Positions 7,971 to 40,883 of a stretch of DNA of 64,000 bases are shown here, piece by piece. This DNA comes from Thioalkalivibrio thiocyanodenitrificans ARhD 1. Its GTDB lineage: Bacteria; Pseudomonadota; Gammaproteobacteria; Ectothiorhodospirales; Ectothiorhodospiraceae. Under the pieces are notes generated by a model. The model was not told where the DNA came from. It saw nothing but the letters and a program-made list of their open reading frames with translations, and ran no database searches. The position numbers and the translations under genes were made by a program. The stretch lies in assembly GCF_000378965.1 (NCBI RefSeq), contig NZ_KB900536.1, positions 2,667,407 through 2,731,406 on the forward strand. The letters run 5' to 3'. Numbering within the stretch: position 1 is the stretch's first letter; every line of letters begins with the position of its first letter.

Positions 7971-8294
7971 CTAGCTGTTGAGCTTCTCCATGTGCCGGCG
8001 AGTCAGTTCCATGAAGCGCGGCGTAAGCCCGGCGTCCTCGAAGATGGGATCTCCCATCTCGTCTTCGGAGATGACCCGCTCTCCCGGCACATAGGGCATC
8101 GCGGCTTCCAGCTCATCCAGTGCCGCGGAGAGCAGTTCGCCGATGAGCACATCCCGGTCCTTGCCCGGAAACAGCTGTTCCAGGGCCGCGATACGCGCGG
8201 CGTCACGCTCGGACAGACGCATGCAGTATTCCTCCTGCGTGACCCGGCCGCCGGTCTGTTTCGACCAGTGCTCAAGCAGCTCTTTGACCTTCAT
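7971..8294 (-). CDS. conserved small protein (resembles proteins annotated as pilin assembly / type 1 pili tip component in pseudomonads)
   Basis: 107 residues, acidic and helical, with no signal peptide or membrane segment. The sequence (MKVKELLEHW at the start, LSERDAARIAALEQLFPG, LLSAALDELEAAMPYV, LTPRFMELTRRHME) looks like a conserved cytoplasmic protein that I recall from pseudomonads, where the pilus-related name is not well founded. The ATG follows GAGGAGAC at good spacing. Molecular function is unknown. Confidence 0.75.
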   Translation of the reverse strand: MKVKELLEHWSKQTGGRVTQEEYCMRLSERDAARIAALEQLFPGKDRDVLIGELLSAALDELEAAMPYVPGERVISEDEMGDPIFEDAGLTPRFMELTRRHMEKLNS

Positions 8295-32885: not shown

Positions 32886-34430
32886 ATGAAAAGAGTTCAG
32901 AGGAACATTCCTACGACACCGTTTAAGGTCAAGCCTTTGGGTGTAGCCTTGGCGATCGCCATGGGCGCAGCCGTGACGGTGCCTACTGCTCAGGCCGTGA
33001 ATTTTGCCGAAGACGGCGTCGGCGAAGTGCTGTTGTTCCCGTACTACACGGTGCGCAACGGCTTCGACACCAACATCAACATCACCAACACCTCGGACAC
33101 CACGGTTGCCTTCAAGATCCGCTTCCGCGAAGGCGAGAACAGCCGGGATGCCCGTGACTTCAACGTGGTCCTGTCCCCGCGCGACGTGTGGAACGCCACG
33201 ATTACCGAATCCCCCGATGGCACGCGAGCCCGCCTCGTCACGGGTGACAACTCCTGCACCGCGCCGGTACTGCCCTTGAATGTGGGTGGCGGTCGTCTTG
33301 GCGTGGATTTCACCAATCTCGATTACGTCGGTTCGAATGGTGACGGTGGCAACGAAGGCTTCGACCGTACCAAGGAAGGCTATATCGAGGTGATCCAGAT
33401 GGGTCACGCCAGCGCTGGCGCCGAGGAAAACGAGGCAAGCTTTAACGGTGTCGCGTACAACGCCAAGCATATCAATGGTGTGCCGAGGGATTGCGCTGCC
33501 GTGCGCACGGCCTTCACGCCAGGCGCCCAGGGCGGTACGCTTGCCGCCACCCAGGCTGCCTTCCTGGAGCCGATCAACGTCCTCAAGGGCACGGCGACCC
33601 TGATGCAGGTCAACAGCGGAAAGGGTGCCAGCTTCGAGCCCGTCGTGCTGGCGAACTTCTTCAATCCCGCGGGTCCTGATGGCAACGGTGCCCCAGGCTC
33701 CAACCTGATGGACGAACCGGCCAGTATCAACCCGAACCTGTCCGACGTCACCCCGCAGCTCGCGCAGATCCACACGGACAACCCGGGTTTCGCGGTGACG
33801 GGTCTGTTTGATGCCGTGGACGGCGATGCGGTAAGTGCGCTGCTCTCCCGGACCAGCGTCATGAACCAGTTCAGCGTCAATCCGGCCAACAACGCGATGA
33901 CCGACTGGGTGGTCACGTTCCCCACCAAGAACTTCTACGTCGACGAGCGTGAAGCGGGTGCCAACACGCTGGAGCCGTTCGCCAACGCCGGTGTCCCGAC
34001 GTTCCAGGATGACGACGACGGCCAGTCCTGCGTGCCGGTCAACTTCGCCCTCTGGGATCGCGAGGAATTCTCGCCCGAGAGTCCGGACGACCTGCAGTTC
34101 TCCCCGCCGCCTCCTCCGGGTGAGGACGACACCATCTGCTACGAGACGAATGTGATCTCGTTCAATGGTGGCGGCCTGCTCGGTTCCGCGCTGGTCAGGG
34201 ATTTCAACGCTCCCGGCAACAACAATATCAACTCCGGTTGGATGAAACTGAACTTCCTCAATCCGGGTGATATCGTGAGCAGCCAAGGGGACTGGGGCTC
34301 GGTCACCGGCCTTCCGGTGATCGGTATGGCCATCACCACGCTGGAGAACGGTGTGTCCGGCGACAACCTGATGAACTACGGGTTGGCCTTCGAACACGCC
34401 TACACCCGCGTGATCAGTACCCTCGACTAA
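32886..34430 (+). CDS. exported protein of unknown function, possible abundant surface or secreted protein
   Basis: 514 residues. An n-region of about 18 residues precedes a signal core (LGVALAIAMGAAVTVPTAQA) with cleavage after AQA. The mature protein is acidic and Asn/Asp/Gly rich, with segments such as VLLFPYYTVRNGFDTNINIT, a region resembling a DUF of exported proteins beginning with fibronectin-like strands. A Pro-rich stretch FSPPPPPGEDD is near residue 405. Four or more cysteines occur. No catalytic motif is recognised. It has its own promoter, strong ribosome binding site and strong terminator, implying a monocistronic, well-expressed gene. The adjacent type II system makes it a candidate substrate, but this is inference. 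Confidence 0.85.
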   Translation: MKRVQRNIPTTPFKVKPLGVALAIAMGAAVTVPTAQAVNFAEDGVGEVLLFPYYTVRNGFDTNINITNTSDTTVAFKIRFREGENSRDARDFNVVLSPRDVWNATITESPDGTRARLVTGDNSCTAPVLPLNVGGGRLGVDFTNLDYVGSNGDGGNEGFDRTKEGYIEVIQMGHASAGAEENEASFNGVAYNAKHINGVPRDCAAVRTAFTPGAQGGTLAATQAAFLEPINVLKGTATLMQVNSGKGASFEPVVLANFFNPAGPDGNGAPGSNLMDEPASINPNLSDVTPQLAQIHTDNPGFAVTGLFDAVDGDAVSALLSRTSVMNQFSVNPANNAMTDWVVTFPTKNFYVDEREAGANTLEPFANAGVPTFQDDDDGQSCVPVNFALWDREEFSPESPDDLQFSPPPPPGEDDTICYETNVISFNGGGLLGSALVRDFNAPGNNNINSGWMKLNFLNPGDIVSSQGDWGSVTGLPVIGMAITTLENGVSGDNLMNYGLAFEHAYTRVISTLD

Positions 34431-34859: not shown

Positions 34860-35675
34860 ATGAATACCGAACCCTCCGCCTTCCGCAAGCTCCTCCTGCC
34901 GGCCGTCGCCCTGGCCGCTCTGGTGCCGGTTACGGCCGCTGCCTACACCCTCGTGATCAATGAGGACGGTAACGAGGTGCAGTGCACCACCAGTGGCGAC
35001 GTGGTCTTTAGCGGTAACCAGATACGCGTGAACGTGGCGTCCGGATGTTTGTCTACCGAACCTACTGAACCCACCGAACCGCCACCGGAAGAGCCGCCGG
35101 AAGAAGAGGAGCCGCCCCCGCCATCGACCGGTGGTGATGATCCCGGGACCGGTCTGTGGAAGCCGCAAAGCCATATCTATGTCTTCGATCGCAGTCGCCA
35201 GAGCAGCGACAATCACGTACCCGGTTGCATTCCTACCGAGTATCAGCAATGCCAGTGGGCTCAAGACAGCCAGTATGTATCGGTCAAGGCTGGTGAGGTC
35301 TGGTCCATGCGCATTCCGTTTTCATTGGATGCCAGTGGGAGCTACCTGAGCATGCCGTTAGCCCGCGGAGAGGCGGGCGAGAACAGTACGCTGAGCCGAT
35401 TCGACGTGGCGATCACAAAGACGCCGGGCGCCTTCAATACATCCGACTCGGCTTGTCGTCGTACCAACGTAAGCACATATAGCTTTAGCTTCAAGGATGC
35501 GATCGCCGGCGCCGCTCTGTGGGGCGGATGTCCCCTGGACCGGAACACAATGTATTACTTCAATGTGCGGCCGGCAGCGGGCACGGAGTCTGCTACCCGG
35601 TGTGGCACCAATAACAACACTCATTGCCGGTTCCGCATCATCAACCGCTTCTCCACCAGCAACTTCTCCGACTAA
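34860..35675 (+). CDS. exported protein with Pro/Glu-rich linker, unknown function
   Basis: 271 residues. Signal peptide (LLLPAVALAALVPVTAAA) with cleavage near AAA/Y. A short N-terminal domain (YTLVINEDGNEVQCTTSGDV) is followed by a low-complexity linker of Pro, Glu and Thr (TEPTEPTEPPPEEPPEEEEP, about residues 65-90) and a C-terminal domain with several Cys (CIPTEYQQCQW, CRRTN, GGCPLDR, RCGTNNNTHCRF) that probably forms disulfides. The linker-plus-globular arrangement is common in type II secretion substrates. GAGAGG precedes the ATG. A terminator closes the gene. No enzymatic motif is seen. Confidence 0.8.
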   Translation: MNTEPSAFRKLLLPAVALAALVPVTAAAYTLVINEDGNEVQCTTSGDVVFSGNQIRVNVASGCLSTEPTEPTEPPPEEPPEEEEPPPPSTGGDDPGTGLWKPQSHIYVFDRSRQSSDNHVPGCIPTEYQQCQWAQDSQYVSVKAGEVWSMRIPFSLDASGSYLSMPLARGEAGENSTLSRFDVAITKTPGAFNTSDSACRRTNVSTYSFSFKDAIAGAALWGGCPLDRNTMYYFNVRPAAGTESATRCGTNNNTHCRFRIINRFSTSNFSD

Positions 35676-35701
35676 GTTGTTGATGTCGACACCGTGATTC
35701 G

Positions 35702-35732
35702 AAAGGCCGGACACATGTCCGGCCTTTTTTTC
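35702..35732 (+). terminator. intrinsic terminator
   Basis: AAAGGCCGGAC (35702-35712), loop ACAT, GTCCGGCCTTT (35717-35727), followed by further T residues (eight T in a row). It ends the exported-protein gene at 35675. Confidence 0.95.
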
Positions 35733-35997
35733 CTGTGGCGCCCAGGACGCCGCGCCCTCTCCGCTGTGTGCGACGGCGCCGGAGAGCTGCCCGGCGCCTG
35801 CCATCCCGTGGCACCCCACCGCCTACCCTCATCGGCTCAAAACCGGCGGCAGGCTTTTGTTCCTGCCAGCGCGCCGATAGAATAGCAAGCGGTCAGCACC
35901 GCCACCGTTGGTTGACCTGGCTGCCCGGCCTGCCCAGGAACCTCTGACAGGTTCGCGGCATGTCAAACCTCTTTGCTCCGAGGACCCCGTCGATCCC

Positions 35998-36912
35998 ATG
36001 CCAAGAAACATTTTCTCGCTCCTGATTCTGCTCTTGTCCACTTTCCCCGGTGTGAACGCTTCGCAATCCGTGTCGGATGCCCATGTGGTCATTGTAGGCC
36101 CCGGCGTCGAGATTACCGCGGAGCATGTGGCGCTAGAACTGCGTACCTTTGCCCCGGGGCAGCAAAGGCAGATCGTCAATGACGCCGACATGTTCCACCA
36201 GATGGTCAACACGCTTTACCGCCGTGCTCGCATGGCCGTGGAGGCCGAGGAACGTGGACTCGATGACGATCCGCTGATGCGGTACCGTATCGAGCGCGCC
36301 CGGCGCGACCTGCTGGTGGATGCCGCGCGCAACGCCTTCATTGAAACCCTGGAAATGCCGGATTTCACGGAACTGGCTCACGAGCGTTACCGCGCCAACA
36401 GGGACCAGCACAGAGTTGCCGAGCGCGTCCACGCCCGGCACATCCTGCTCTCCGTGCAGGAGGAGGACGGCAAGGCCGAGCGCGTTGCACAGGCCGACGC
36501 TCTGATGGATCGTATCCGGGCGGGAAAAGACTTTGAAGATCTCGCCCGGGAGTACTCCGACGACGCGGGCAGCAGTGGCTCCGGGGGCGACCTCGGCTTC
36601 TTCGAGCGGGGCCGCATGGTACCTGCCTTCGAGGAAGCCGCCTTCGCCCTGCGTGAGCCCGGCGAGCTGGCCGGACCCGTGGAAACCCGCTTCGGCATTC
36701 ACATCATCCAGTTGGTTGAGTACCAGGACGCGCACACCCGGCCCTTCGAGGAGGTGCGCGAGGCGATCGAGGCCCGCATCCGCGCCAACTACGTGCGCTC
36801 CGAACTCACCGCGTGGACCCGCGAGGTGACCGATCCCGCCGCCGCCACCGTCGACAACGACGCCCTGGAGGGGCTGCTGGACGACGCACGCCGCCGGCTG
36901 AACACCGACTAG
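35998..36912 (+). CDS. periplasmic parvulin-type peptidyl-prolyl isomerase/chaperone (SurA/PrsA-like)
   Basis: 304 residues. Signal peptide IFSLLILLLSTFPGVNA. A helical chaperone region (about 40-150) precedes the parvulin domain, which shows VHARHILLSVQEEDGKAE, FEDLAREYSDDAGSSGSGGD, LGFFERGRMVPAFEEAAF and ETRFGIHIIQLVEY, the complete signature. The protein catalyses proline isomerisation in periplasmic or secreted proteins. It sits between two exported proteins and a glycan locus, so it may help fold secretion substrates or glycan enzymes. Start at 35998 chosen for the signal peptide. Confidence 0.92.
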   Translation: MPRNIFSLLILLLSTFPGVNASQSVSDAHVVIVGPGVEITAEHVALELRTFAPGQQRQIVNDADMFHQMVNTLYRRARMAVEAEERGLDDDPLMRYRIERARRDLLVDAARNAFIETLEMPDFTELAHERYRANRDQHRVAERVHARHILLSVQEEDGKAERVAQADALMDRIRAGKDFEDLAREYSDDAGSSGSGGDLGFFERGRMVPAFEEAAFALREPGELAGPVETRFGIHIIQLVEYQDAHTRPFEEVREAIEARIRANYVRSELTAWTREVTDPAAATVDNDALEGLLDDARRRLNTD

Positions 36913-37009
36913 GCACACGGCTCGGGGCCGGCGCGCCGGCTCCCGGGAGCGCCCGGCGCCTGCGCACGCCGCCGGGACGAAGGACAGGACACACCAGGAG
37001 CCGCTACCG

Positions 37010-38815
37010 ATGCAGGGCACCGGGATCAACTTTTCATACACGGTGCCCGGCAGCGGACAGGCGCCGCCGCCCCTGCTCATCCTGGACGGGCTTCGCCTGT
37101 CCGACGCCGGCCCGCACTCCATGCTGCTTCGAACCACGGACGGCAGCGTAGCGACGCTGCTGGCCCGCCCGCTGGCCCGGGGGCTGGAAGTCTGCCGGCG
37201 CTTCGCCACCCTGGACCAGCACGCCGACCTGCTGGCCCGCCGGCTGGGGGCGTCGGACCGCGCCGAGGTGCGCCGCTCCCTGGAGGCGCTGCACGGGCGT
37301 GGCCATTTCATCGATGCGTCCGCCTTCCTGTCGCGGCTGGACGCCGGCGCGGACGTGCCGGCGTCATCCCCGCTGCCCGTCTACGTGCGCACCTGCGGCC
37401 GCCCGGACGATCTGGTCCGGCTGCTGGATGCGCTGCACGGCGCCTGCGCCGCCGGTCAGACGGTGGCGGTGATCGACGACTCAGCCGACACGGACACGGA
37501 ACGCGCCAATCAGGACGCCTGCCGGGCCGCCGCCGCGCGGGGTCTCGACGTGGGCTACGCGGGCCGCCATGGACTTGACCCGGTCCTGAGCGAGGTCGCC
37601 GGGGATGACCCGGACGACGCCGCCATCCTGCGCTGGCTGCTCGCCCCCGAGCGCGGTCCGGGGGAGGGTTCCTACGGCGCGGCACTGAACCGGGTGCTGC
37701 TGCTCTCGGCGGGCCGCCGGGCACTGCTGCTGGATGATGATGCGGCCCTGACGCCGTTGCGCCCGGCCCACGTGACCCCCGGCCCGCTGTCTCTTTCCTC
37801 GCGCCCCTACGACAACCGCTATTACCCGGCGGACCATCCCCACGACGAGTGCCGGGCATTGCCCTTGAGCGCGTTCGAGGAGCACGCCCGGTTGCTCGGG
37901 CAGGGCGTGGGCGCCGTGCTCGCCAACGAGACGCCCGAGGCGCGTCTCACGGCCCTCCGGGAAACGGAGCCCGGCCTGCCGGACCGGCTGAACGCGCATG
38001 CGGCGGTGAAGCTGTCCGTCAACGGCGTGGTGGGCGACAGCGGCGCGCCGTCCAATCTGCAGCTCTTTCTGACGGCGCCGGAGAACCTGGGCCCCGCGCT
38101 GGCCTCCGAGGCGCGCTACGAGGCGCTGGTGACCGGCCATACCGTTTGGCGCGGCAGGGCGGGCCTGAACCTCTCGCCGGTGTGCATCCTCACCCTGACC
38201 ACCCTGGCGGGTGTCGACAACCGCACCCTCGTGCCGCCCGTGCTGCCCCTGGGGCGGGGCGAGGACTACCTCTTCGGCGCCGCGCTGGAGTTCCTCTATC
38301 CGGAGATGTTTGTCGCCGAACTGCCGTGGAGCCTGCTGCATTCGCCGGGTCGCGGCCGGCGCTACGACCGCGGCCTGTTCGACCGGCCGGTCACGCCCGG
38401 CGGGTCGCAGATCCTCGCCGAGGCGATCCGGGCGGAGGCGCCGCGCTGCCGGGCGCGGGCGCCGGAGGCGCGCCTCGCGCACCTCGGCGAACTGGTGTCC
38501 GGCTGGGCGCGGCTGGACGACGACGCCCTGGGTGCGATGTTCGAGGAGCTGGTCGTCGCGTCACGTTCGGCCCTGCTGGGGCGGCTGGACGAGAGTCTGC
38601 GCCGCCATGCCGATTCGCCGGAGTTCGTGCGCGCGGATCTGCGCAAACTGATCGAGCGGAACAACGACTTCCGTCCCGAAACGCTGCGCCCCGCCCGCCT
38701 CGATGATCTGCGGCTTGCCTGGGGCCGGTACGGACGCGCCCTGGCGCTGTGGCCCCGTCTCTGGGCGCGTCTGCGTGTTCAGGGTGCCGGTGATCGAGTA
38801 TTATCCCGGGGCTGA
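37010..38815 (+). CDS. large protein with putative GT-A glycosyltransferase domain and N-terminal winged-helix-like segment
   Basis: 601 residues, no signal peptide. AGGAGCC precedes the ATG. Residues 1-105 read like a small helical or winged-helix module (ATLDQHADLLARRLGASD, VRRSLEALHGRGHFIDA), vaguely PqqD-like. From about 122 a GT-A-like fold is suggested: PVYVRTCGRPDDLVRLLDAL, then YGAALNRVLLLSAGRRALLL leading into DDDA (DXD-type metal site, near residue 243), and later LGRGEDYLFGAALEFLYPEM near 415. The C-terminal third is helical. It immediately precedes the Wzm/Wzt exporter genes, so a glycan role is likely. The substrate and family are not recognised. Confidence 0.7.
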   Translation: MQGTGINFSYTVPGSGQAPPPLLILDGLRLSDAGPHSMLLRTTDGSVATLLARPLARGLEVCRRFATLDQHADLLARRLGASDRAEVRRSLEALHGRGHFIDASAFLSRLDAGADVPASSPLPVYVRTCGRPDDLVRLLDALHGACAAGQTVAVIDDSADTDTERANQDACRAAAARGLDVGYAGRHGLDPVLSEVAGDDPDDAAILRWLLAPERGPGEGSYGAALNRVLLLSAGRRALLLDDDAALTPLRPAHVTPGPLSLSSRPYDNRYYPADHPHDECRALPLSAFEEHARLLGQGVGAVLANETPEARLTALRETEPGLPDRLNAHAAVKLSVNGVVGDSGAPSNLQLFLTAPENLGPALASEARYEALVTGHTVWRGRAGLNLSPVCILTLTTLAGVDNRTLVPPVLPLGRGEDYLFGAALEFLYPEMFVAELPWSLLHSPGRGRRYDRGLFDRPVTPGGSQILAEAIRAEAPRCRARAPEARLAHLGELVSGWARLDDDALGAMFEELVVASRSALLGRLDESLRRHADSPEFVRADLRKLIERNNDFRPETLRPARLDDLRLAWGRYGRALALWPRLWARLRVQGAGDRVLSRG

Positions 38816-38845
38816 TTCCCTGACCCCGCTTCTCCAGGCGTGAAT

Positions 38846-39658
38846 ATGCCCCTGCCTTCCCCCGTGAATGCCGTCGCCCTCCTGTGGATCCACAGGCGCT
38901 TCGTCTGGTCGCTGACCCTGACCGGCGTGTCATCACGGTACCGTACCTCCTGGTTCGGGCTGTTCTGGCCGGTCATTCACCCCGTGCTCCTGATCGGCGT
39001 GTTCACGTTCGTGTTCGCCTACGTCATGCCGCTGCGGTGGGTGTCGGAGGAGTCCGGCGGCGTCGGCTTCCCGCTGTTCCTGTACTCCGGCTTTCTCGTG
39101 TTCACCTTCTTCGCCGACGTCGTTTCGCGCGCGCCCACGCTGGTGCTGGAGAACACCAACCTGGTCAAGAAGGTGGTCTTCCCGCTGGAGGTGCTGGCCA
39201 TGGTGTCCGCCTGCACGTCGCTGCTGTTCTTCGCCGTCAACCTGGGCGTGTTCTCGGTGTTCCTGGCGCTGCTCGGGCCGGGCCTGCCGTGGTTCACCCC
39301 CGTGCTGCTGGGGCTGTTCATCCCGTTCGCCCTGTTCCTGATCGGCGTGGCCTGGTTCCTCTCCGCGCTGACCGTCTATGTGCGCGACGTGACCCACGTG
39401 ATCGGCATCTTCGTTACGGCGATGATGTTCTTCTCGCCGGTGTTCTATCCGCTCTCGTCCGCGCCGGAACCGGTGCGGGCCGCCCTGTCCCTGAGCCCCC
39501 TGACCATCGTCATCGAGGGGATCCGCGCGGTGGCCTTCGACCATGTCCTGCCGGACGGCGGCGACATGCTGATCCTGTGGATCGGCTCGCTGGCGGTGTT
39601 CTACCTTGGCTACCTGTGGTTCCAGCGCGTGAAGGAGGGATTCTCGGATGTCCTCTGA
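38846..39658 (+). CDS. wzm: ABC-2 type polysaccharide export permease (Wzm family)
   Basis: 270 residues with six predicted membrane helices and the family features RYRTSWFGLFWPVIHPVLLI near the N-terminus and VTAMMFFSPVFYPLSSAPEP near the C-terminus. Together with the ATPase it moves lipid-linked polysaccharide or O-antigen across the inner membrane. Its end overlaps the ATPase gene by 11 bases. A GTG at 38840 is an alternative start two codons upstream. Confidence 0.92.
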   Translation: MPLPSPVNAVALLWIHRRFVWSLTLTGVSSRYRTSWFGLFWPVIHPVLLIGVFTFVFAYVMPLRWVSEESGGVGFPLFLYSGFLVFTFFADVVSRAPTLVLENTNLVKKVVFPLEVLAMVSACTSLLFFAVNLGVFSVFLALLGPGLPWFTPVLLGLFIPFALFLIGVAWFLSALTVYVRDVTHVIGIFVTAMMFFSPVFYPLSSAPEPVRAALSLSPLTIVIEGIRAVAFDHVLPDGGDMLILWIGSLAVFYLGYLWFQRVKEGFSDVL

Positions 39659-40883
39659 GCCGGTGCTCGCGGTCGAGGGCCTGACCAAGTGCTATCCGGC
39701 CCACGATCACCCCAAGCAGCGCCTGATGCAGCTCCTGCTCGGGCGGCGCGGCCCCGCGCCGACGCCTCGCTGCGCGCTTCGCGACGTCTCGTTCTCGCTC
39801 AGGCGCGGCGAGATCCTGGGCGTTATCGGCCCCAACGGCGCGGGCAAGTCGACCCTGCTGCAGCTCATCGCGGGCACGCTGCGGCCCACTGCGGGATCGG
39901 TGCACATCAACGGCCGGGTCACCGCGCTGCTGGAACTGGGCGCGGGCGTCGATCCGGAGATGACCGGCGTCGAGAACATCTTTCTCATGGGCACCACCTA
40001 CGGTCTTCCCCGCGAGGCGGTGGAGGAGCGCCTGGCGGAGATCATCCGCTTCTCGGAACTGGGCACGTTCATCGACAGCCCGGTCAAGACCTACTCCTCC
40101 GGCATGTTCGTGCGCCTGGCGTTCTCCGTGTCCACCGCCATGGAGCCGGATATCCTGATCGTCGACGAGGCGCTCTCGGTGGGCGACGTGGGTTTCCAGG
40201 CCAAGTGTCTCGACCGGCTGGAGCAGTTGATCGACGGAGGTTCCAGCATTCTGCTGGCGTCGCACGATCTGCAACTCATCAAGAACTACTGCACGGAGGC
40301 CATCTGCCTGGATCACGGAGAGATCGTCGCCAGCGGAAACCCGGAACCGGTGGTGGAGCGCTACTATTTCCTTATGCGTACCCGCAACCAGCAGGGCCAG
40401 GAAAGCCTGACCTGGTCCGCCCCCAACCCCGAGGCCGGGGTTCGTTTCGCCAGTGACCGCGGCGCCATTGAGTCAGTGGAGATCAAGCGTGCCGGCGAGA
40501 GCGTGTCGTTTCAGACGGGAGAAGAGGTGACTGTGTGCGTGCGTGGGCATTTGGAGCCGGCTCGCTGCGCCAGTCCGGCGGTTTCAGTCATGCTGCGCGA
40601 TGTGCGTGGCTACAATCTCTACGGGCTGACAGCCAGCGCGGACAAGAGTCAGGTGCGTATCTCCGATTCGGGGACCTTTGAGAGCCGTTTCCGGATTCCT
40701 CTGAATTTCGCCGTCGGCCATTATTCACTCACGGTCCGGCTCGAGGATCGGCGAACCGACCGGATCATGACCCTGCTTGATAAGCGTGTCGGCATCTGTG
40801 GGTTCTCGGTGGAAGCGCCTGAGCGCACCTTCCTGGGTTCCGTGAACCTGTTTGGCCAGGTACTTGAACCCGAGAACTTCTGA
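39648..40883 (+). CDS. wzt: ABC transporter ATP-binding protein for polysaccharide export (Wzt family, with C-terminal extension)
   Basis: 411 residues. ABC domain to about 250: Walker A IGPNGAGKST, signature YSSGMFVRLAF, Walker B ILIVDEALSVGD, and H-loop LLASHD. The extra C-terminal region of about 150 residues (FRIPLNFAVGHYSLTVRLED) is the Wzt_C jelly-roll module that in O8/O9a-type exporters recognises the modified non-reducing end of the glycan. That implies the exported polymer carries a terminating or capping group, in keeping with the methyltransferases and sulfotransferases nearby. Confidence 0.95.
   Translation: MSSEPVLAVEGLTKCYPAHDHPKQRLMQLLLGRRGPAPTPRCALRDVSFSLRRGEILGVIGPNGAGKSTLLQLIAGTLRPTAGSVHINGRVTALLELGAGVDPEMTGVENIFLMGTTYGLPREAVEERLAEIIRFSELGTFIDSPVKTYSSGMFVRLAFSVSTAMEPDILIVDEALSVGDVGFQAKCLDRLEQLIDGGSSILLASHDLQLIKNYCTEAICLDHGEIVASGNPEPVVERYYFLMRTRNQQGQESLTWSAPNPEAGVRFASDRGAIESVEIKRAGESVSFQTGEEVTVCVRGHLEPARCASPAVSVMLRDVRGYNLYGLTASADKSQVRISDSGTFESRFRIPLNFAVGHYSLTVRLEDRRTDRIMTLLDKRVGICGFSVEAPERTFLGSVNLFGQVLEPENF

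Follow-up and report, generated by a model that had tools for sequence, protein, structure and literature searches.

Fusions of an RRE to a glycosyltransferase are already known by name. RRE-Finder listed them among potentially novel clusters (PMC7470986), and its 2025 update named RREs fused to PF00535 proteins (PMC12710340); the available text of both papers does not describe their function, and their likeness to the protein presented here, which has the same domain pair, goes as far as that mention. No characterised RRE-guided glycosyltransferase was found in the literature searched. For the catalytic part, GT75 (MtdL of Marinactinospora thermotolerans and plant UAM/RGP) has the same layout of GT-A domain, core and C-terminal helices, together with a DxD motif, a metal-binding His and an Arg-x-x-Asp motif. 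The available part of the MtdL study (PMC9937993) places DxD 109-111 and His287 at the metal, names Arg257 and Asp260, gives Arg159 as the likely nucleophile and reports that mutating Asp87 or Asp195 abolishes activity. According to the same text, GT75 proteins autoglycosylate an arginine.

What appears to be new in the protein described in this study is an RRE fused to a GT75-like core in unusual envelope-glycan settings. Unlike GT75 proteins, it carries an N-terminal RRE and has, by sequence order, no conserved counterparts of Arg159 and Asp195, and its sequence similarity to them is non-significant. It has the strands-then-three-helices fold of RREs (PqqD and the domains of TbiB1, TigE, MibB, NisB and MccB), and a stand-alone PqqD is matched by the family profile; however, the family stays below the PF05402 and NCBIfam cut-offs and its proteobacterial genes have no conserved small ORF nearby. 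It has the GT-A fold of GT2 proteins (PF00535; AvpGT, TarP) and a domain start alike in sequence, but is longer, has its own core and C-terminal helices and reaches lower Z values with them (AvpGT 15.3, TarP 14.4).

The gene was found in a stretch of 64,000 nucleotides from Thioalkalivibrio thiocyanodenitrificans ARhD 1, hereafter the window (Table 1). Its ORF starts with ATG and has no internal stops. Since relatives in four of the 47 genomes of the host family (its own included) and at 21 loci in named genomes span nearly the whole length, it is a real gene rather than a chance reading frame, in agreement with the first-pass annotation. That annotation knew of no family with this exact architecture, which was nearly right: no Pfam or NCBIfam model covers the protein (no family match at E up to 1), yet RRE-glycosyltransferase fusions have been named in print. 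An alignment-based AlphaFold2 model (21 sequences) reached a mean pLDDT of 87.9 and a pTM of 0.88, with residues 1-15 below 50, and we are highly confident of the two folds that it predicts, RRE-like and GT-A. The protein has no strongly hydrophobic stretch (top 19-residue Kyte-Doolittle mean, 1.54).

Table 1. Features of the gene, its product and its neighbours, with positions in the window.
Feature	Position	Strand	Evidence and remarks
Whole gene	37010..38815	+	601 aa; N-terminal tail, RRE-like domain, GT-A domain, C-terminal helical domain
Strand-like motif, residues 6-10 (INFSY; FSFSF in several relatives)	37025..37039	+	Tail modelled disordered, then flexible linker
RRE/PqqD-like domain, residues 20-102	37067..37315	+	Model secondary structure, pLDDT about 90; structural neighbours; profile match
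GT-A domain, residues about 119-450	37364..38359	+	AlphaFold2 model, Foldseek, VIA-align
DxD motif, Asp242-Asp243-Asp244	37733..37741	+	D242 and D244 25/25; D243 23/25
Asp403-Asn404 of GxDNR motif	38216..38221	+	D403 25/25; N404 24/25
Arg416-x-Glu418-Asp419	38255..38266	+	D419 25/25; E418 24/25; R416 15/25
His444	38339..38341	+	25/25; by order matches MtdL metal ligand His287 as given in the available text
C-terminal helical domain, residues 451-600	38360..38809	+	Invariant Arg488 and Trp581 (25/25 each)
Secreted-looking 514-aa "surface protein"	32886..34430	+	No family over cut-off; near family gene in three genomes
PpiC-type peptidyl-prolyl isomerase	35908..36912	+	PF13616 9.7e-31; homologues near family gene in L022 and L063
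Wzm-like ABC-2 permease	38840..39658	+	PF01061 1.4e-19; 24 bp gap after the glycosyltransferase gene
Wzt-like ATPase with Wzt_C domain	39648..40883	+	PF00005 2.1e-22; PF14524 5e-14

The family is rare and patchy in the genome samples searched. The window genome carries one copy, and a search of the host order, which likewise covered 47 genomes, gave four positives. Searched alone against the named genome contigs, the window protein produced 74 pattern matches and no relatives; these were found only by alignment, as a four-sequence alignment (A1) matched 33 stretches, 21 of which encode relatives. They comprise 12 Wenzhouxiangella/Wenzhouxiangellaceae records, two Thioalkalivibrio MAGs, Thiorhodospira sibirica, five other proteobacterial MAGs and, distantly, Clostridium sp. 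KNHs214. A larger alignment (A2, from which L010, a near-copy of L009, was omitted) sets the window protein beside 20 relatives at 14-28% identity. Conservation was counted in 25 sequences, namely A2 plus L030, L031, L032 and the partial L034, without the L033 fusion described below. In the class sample 32 of 369 genomes were positive at E up to 0.001, only six of them above 150 bits; the other 26 matches were weak (at most 32 bits), mostly to the first part of the glycosyltransferase domain, and were dropped as generic except for one, a PqqD. The phylum sample gave two positives among 349 genomes at 1e-6. In the phylum of the Clostridium homologue 14 of 348 genomes were positive at 1e-4, the only strong match being Clostridium itself and the other 13 weak, and in its order one of 225. 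Viral contigs yielded 93 pattern matches and no relatives, and the window protein had no match in plasmids; a partial match of the Clostridium protein in two Trichormus variabilis plasmid records lay in unrelated context and was set aside.

Two further kinds of ORF were seen during these searches. A 1294-aa ORF (L064:4444-8328; also L033) carries a phosphopantetheine carrier domain (PF00550) followed by a C-terminal glycosyltransferase core of the window-protein family; no RRE was seen in it, and its N-terminal part looks FkbH-like by eye. A second family without a name (L036, L037, L041, L044), about 600 residues long, has a glycosyltransferase-like start (VADRPxHL) and a DSD motif, and the three members scanned (L037, L041, L044) match no Pfam family at cut-off.

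The winged-helix or RRE-like character first proposed for the N-terminus is borne out by structure prediction and comparison. The small helical module placed at residues 60-105 is present, although it belongs to a larger domain that begins near residue 20 with strands ahead of the helices; in the full model, residues 23-102 run from strands through three helices to a strand. Residues 20-118 modelled alone (pLDDT 89.1) show, numbered within the domain model, strands at 4-6, 9-13, 18-23 and 29-33, helices at 34-43, 49-60 and 65-77, a strand at 81-83 and a helix at 84-94. This agrees with the definition of an RRE as three strands and then three helices, in order, in the available text of PMC12710340; here four strands, the first of three residues, precede the helices. 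In a Foldseek search of the PDB, 24 of the first 31 rows were RiPP enzymes or RREs at E 0.0085-0.65 (ThcOx, TigE, LynD, TbiB1, MibB, MadB, PqqD, a lasso B1 protein, CteB, NisB and TruD), the other seven being six chains of Rickettsia lysine methyltransferases (PKMT) and one HicAB chain; no E-value for the domain was 0.001 or lower. With VIA-align all of the first 18 rows were RiPP enzymes or RREs (Z 9.4-7.1), including TigE (Z 9.4, rmsd 4.5, 95 aligned), MibB (9.2, 3.7, 90), NisB (8.5, 3.1, 92) and MccB (8.4, 3.9, 90). The first non-RiPP row, MINA53, ties row 18 at Z 7.1, and NO66 also comes after row 18; by the tool's own caveat, Z below 8 may reflect a common arrangement. Most of these structural neighbours (TigE, MibB, NisB, MccB and so on) are RRE-bearing.

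Family profiles place the domain near PqqD and below the curated thresholds. PF05402 gave no match to the window domain and weak ones in two of 21 members (best E 0.012), and no NCBIfam RRE model reached its cut-off (MftB in two of 21 members, best 0.021; PqqD_rel_X in one of 21). In the opposite direction, positions 31-103 of the A2 profile matched a stand-alone PqqD in the class sample (23.4 bits, E 4.6e-5 for one genome), an 89-aa ORF (L048:433-702) that scores 66.6 bits with PF05402 (2.4e-18) against a cut-off of 23.4. This PqqD adjoins an HprK-related kinase (L048:433-1617; TIGR04352 5e-15, below cut-off).

Ahead of the RRE-like domain lies a short tail (mean pLDDT of residues 1-10, 37). 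Of the 24 members having an N-terminus, 22 carry within their first 80 residues a motif of the form [FIYLV]-x-[FYL]-[SQDN]-[FYLMVW], a pattern drawn up post hoc from the sequences themselves; in the rest of these proteins 2% of 20-residue windows contain it. The Clostridium member lacks it, and in L030, whose start is uncertain, LDYSW starts at residue 78 and so escapes the 80-residue limit. One explanation would be that the motif serves as an in-cis ligand of the RRE.

The middle of the protein had been read as a GT-A domain with a DDD motif near residue 243, and this has held up: a GT-A fold was modelled, and the motif corresponds to residues 242-244, the outer two aspartates being present in every sequence of the set. 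With both parts of the first reading obtained, an RRE-like fold and a GT-A fold, the contrary outcome of neither fold did not occur. The 24 aligned relatives have the key residues in common with the window protein; beyond those in Table 1, Gly342 and Pro431 are invariant (25/25), Asp343 is found in 23/25 and His292 in 23/24. By analogy with MtdL, His444 may be a metal ligand. Known sequence families gave no name to the domain. The window protein had no match to GT2 (PF00535), which matched 16 of 21 relatives at E up to 1 (best 4.4e-5; the Clostridium protein at 23.0 bits against a cut-off of 23.3). Nor did it match DUF6271 (PF19787), to which eight of 21 members were weakly similar (best 6.2e-4); DUF6271 was rejected as a label because, with no occurrence in 143 class genomes or 14 controls, it is uninformative.

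Taken as a whole, we tentatively read the protein, at a little short of an even chance, as an RRE-guided, soluble, metal-dependent GT-A enzyme that glycosylates a peptide or protein. Part of this polypeptide would join the RRE as an extra strand, while a nucleotide sugar would sit in the GT-A domain, where the DxD motif (Asp242-Asp244) and His444 would coordinate Mn2+ or Mg2+. The sugar would then pass to one of the bound polypeptide's residues, Asp419 or Asp403 possibly acting as base.

The best support for peptide or protein glycosylation comes from Clostridium sp. KNHs214. Its homologue (L025:9377-11131) shares 14% identity with the window protein and retains the residues invariant in the 25-sequence set. 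The surrounding cluster (L025:8030-18587) encodes three radical SAM proteins with SPASM matches, one of them below cut-off, two B12-binding radical SAM proteins, a 92-residue protein without Pfam match that is PqqD-like by eye, and an M50 peptidase whose best match is the daptide protease NF041824 (1.1e-54, 186 bits against a cut-off of 300). Upstream of the first radical SAM gene, a 44-codon ORF (8030-8164) follows a strong Shine-Dalgarno sequence, GAGGAGG. Judged by its gene content the cluster looks RiPP-like, and the short ORF is a candidate precursor. The first-pass annotation had argued that an RRE would imply a peptide or protein substrate. The fold is indeed that of an RRE; the step to a peptide substrate does not yet follow, because a RiPP-like cluster surrounds the Clostridium homologue only and no conserved small ORF accompanies the proteobacterial genes. 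Around the latter, 30 small ORFs in 19 loci (25-100 codons, within 1.5 kb and outside called genes, those overlapping called genes being omitted) gave no cross-locus match at 1e-4. This lack of a conserved adjacent precursor, together with neighbours that vary (AmgK/MurU, exosortase H, T2SS), counts against peptide or protein glycosylation, as does the carrier fusion, in which the glycosyltransferase core is joined to a phosphopantetheine domain.

In the window the gene belongs to a setting that is likely one of envelope glycosylation, with Wzm/Wzt glycan export, a PpiC chaperone and a T2SS-linked surface protein, which makes a surface protein or peptide a plausible acceptor. The order is T2SS genes (GspE, GspF, PilN/GspL-like, GspD), a lipoprotein-like gene, the 514-aa protein, PpiC, the glycosyltransferase gene, Wzm and Wzt, with several further glycosyltransferases in the neighbourhood. 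The gene had been placed at the head of a glycan exporter operon. It does lie directly upstream of the Wzm- and Wzt-like genes, but its place at the head is doubtful, as a same-strand PpiC gene ends 97 bp upstream. A scan of positions 35600-39000 found no promoter-like sites and one terminator-like site, before PpiC, which gives only a hint that PpiC, not the glycosyltransferase gene, opens the transcription unit. This hairpin with a T-run (35701-35728) is weak evidence, since shuffled sequences give 1.6 such sites by chance.

Part of this arrangement recurs. In another family of the class (L063), homologues of GspD (43%), the lipoprotein (29%), the 514-aa protein (31%), PpiC (30%), Wzm (30%), Wzt (34%) and the window protein itself (26% identical) lie within 11 kb. 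In the host family, L022 has the 514-aa protein (about 31%), the family gene, PpiC and, where the contig ends, the first 37 residues of Wzm. The family gene, surface protein, PpiC and Wzm thus occur together in three genomes, two of them from one family. A specific tie between the surface protein and the family gene was considered and rejected. The former is present in five of the 47 family genomes and absent from two of the four having the family gene, both being present only in G000 and G032; in G008 and G043 it occurs with GspD and the lipoprotein, and in G033 with GspD, in each case without a family gene found (completeness is 82% for G043 and 66% for G033). The 514-aa protein adjoins GspD in several genomes, and two more homologous regions were noted (L108 and L109, contig C2 of the window genome).

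Elsewhere the neighbours differ; gene calls in the relatives' loci (the Wenzhouxiangella type, the L062/L031 type and Clostridium) are GC-based and rough. At Wenzhouxiangella-type loci the next gene usually encodes an AmgK-like kinase, and a MurU-like gene lies close by; the two corresponding clusters hold at least 15 gene calls, duplicates included (C4), and at least 13 (C5), with one representative of each named. At L031 the homologue follows a GspF-like gene, so labelled from reading and not from a family search, by 25 bp. At L062:4092-7121 a homologue of the window protein follows exosortase H and the membrane protein associated with it in an operon-like run. Exosortases are not a general partner: of the 14 family-positive genomes searched, counting G057 with its carrier fusion, five have one and nine, the window genome included, do not, compared with 16 of 20 relatives that lack the gene.

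These surroundings could also be those of an ordinary glycosyltransferase acting on the polysaccharide that Wzm/Wzt exports, with an RRE that is either a relic or serves to dock a partner protein or its own tail, a reading that we take seriously even if we consider it doubtful. The Wzm/Wzt pair and the additional glycosyltransferases of the window fit it, and GT2-like genes, labelled from reading, adjoin homologues in L062, L063 and L065, those of L063 and L065 being also similar to glycosyltransferases of the window. The AmgK/MurU neighbours in Wenzhouxiangella and the 19 proteobacterial loci where no precursor was found point the same way. The conserved tail motif could fill the RRE in cis, and some RREs may be vestigial according to the available text of PMC7470986. 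However, the RRE region is retained in all 24 aligned members having an N-terminus, with a mean pairwise identity in A2 of 29%, between the 26% of the C-terminal part and the 38% of the glycosyltransferase part, and the Clostridium member, in its RiPP-like cluster, speaks against an ordinary glycosyltransferase.

The resemblance of the core and C-terminus to GT75, not foreseen by the first-pass annotation, leaves room for an NDP-sugar isomerase, that is, a GT75-type NDP-pyranose mutase with an added RRE that would supply an NDP-furanose donor for the glycan. GT75 is the best structural match. The first six Foldseek rows were MtdL (E 5.5e-6 to 2.1e-5), followed by AvpGT and TarP, and VIA-align aligned 309 of 370 residues of MtdL (Z 22.0, rmsd 3.5, 19% identity), running into the C-terminal domain to model residue 589-591, and 301 residues of rice UAM2 (Z 21.9, rmsd 3.4), while other GT-A rows had Z of 15.4 or less. 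By order and spacing, the DxD motif, R416-x-x-D419 and H444 match D109-D111, R257-x-x-D260 and H287 of MtdL, as these are given in the available text. Set against a mutase is the absence of an ordered counterpart of the nucleophile Arg159: between the DxD motif and D343, by sequence order and without structural overlay, no Arg column exceeds 18/25, and the two best columns are occupied in the window protein by Ala332 and Lys334. Alignment by eye puts Asp195 at position 345, a Gly in 22/25. In addition, profile comparison (hhalign) with eight GT75 sequences was weak (Prob 7%, E 0.005) and, like that with two sequences, non-significant, and GT75 PF03214 did not match the window protein and does not appear among the families listed for 21 members. 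We therefore regard a mutase as quite improbable. In the model the protein is built like a GT75 protein and has the site of a metal-dependent GT-A enzyme, but because a conserved counterpart of the nucleophile arginine was not found, it is not filed as GT75. PF03214 occurs in one of 143 class genomes and served only as a source of GT75 sequences. One class genome encodes an MtdL homologue, 41% identical over the stretch compared (L061:1369-2529), between two genes that look methyltransferase-like by eye.

The GT75 likeness may also be read historically. A GT75-type ancestor, self-glycosylating on arginine, would have lost its internal acceptor and gained an RRE that brings a peptide or protein from outside to that site; we consider this unlikely as a specific course of events. 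A self-glycosylating primer, on whose own tail or other internal residue a glycan would grow, recalls the arginine autoglycosylation described in the available text of PMC9937993 and the conserved, often Ser-bearing tail beside the RRE, but it is very improbable, as the tail has no invariant acceptor residue (A2 position 9 is Ser in 15, Asp in four and Gln in one of 20 proteobacterial sequences, and none is present in the Clostridium sequence).

The family comes with a confidently predicted structure, a defined set of site residues and two genomic settings, the RiPP-like cluster of Clostridium with its candidate precursor and the glycan or secretion loci of Gammaproteobacteria. If the RRE-guided reading is true, leader recognition of the RiPP type would be linked to surface glycosylation, and the family would help explain how an autoglycosylating fold becomes a transferase of outside acceptors. 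Were the GT75-derived course also true, RiPP-style leader recognition would operate in envelope glycosylation and protein export in Gammaproteobacteria, and the Clostridium version would make a sugar-bearing radical-SAM RiPP.
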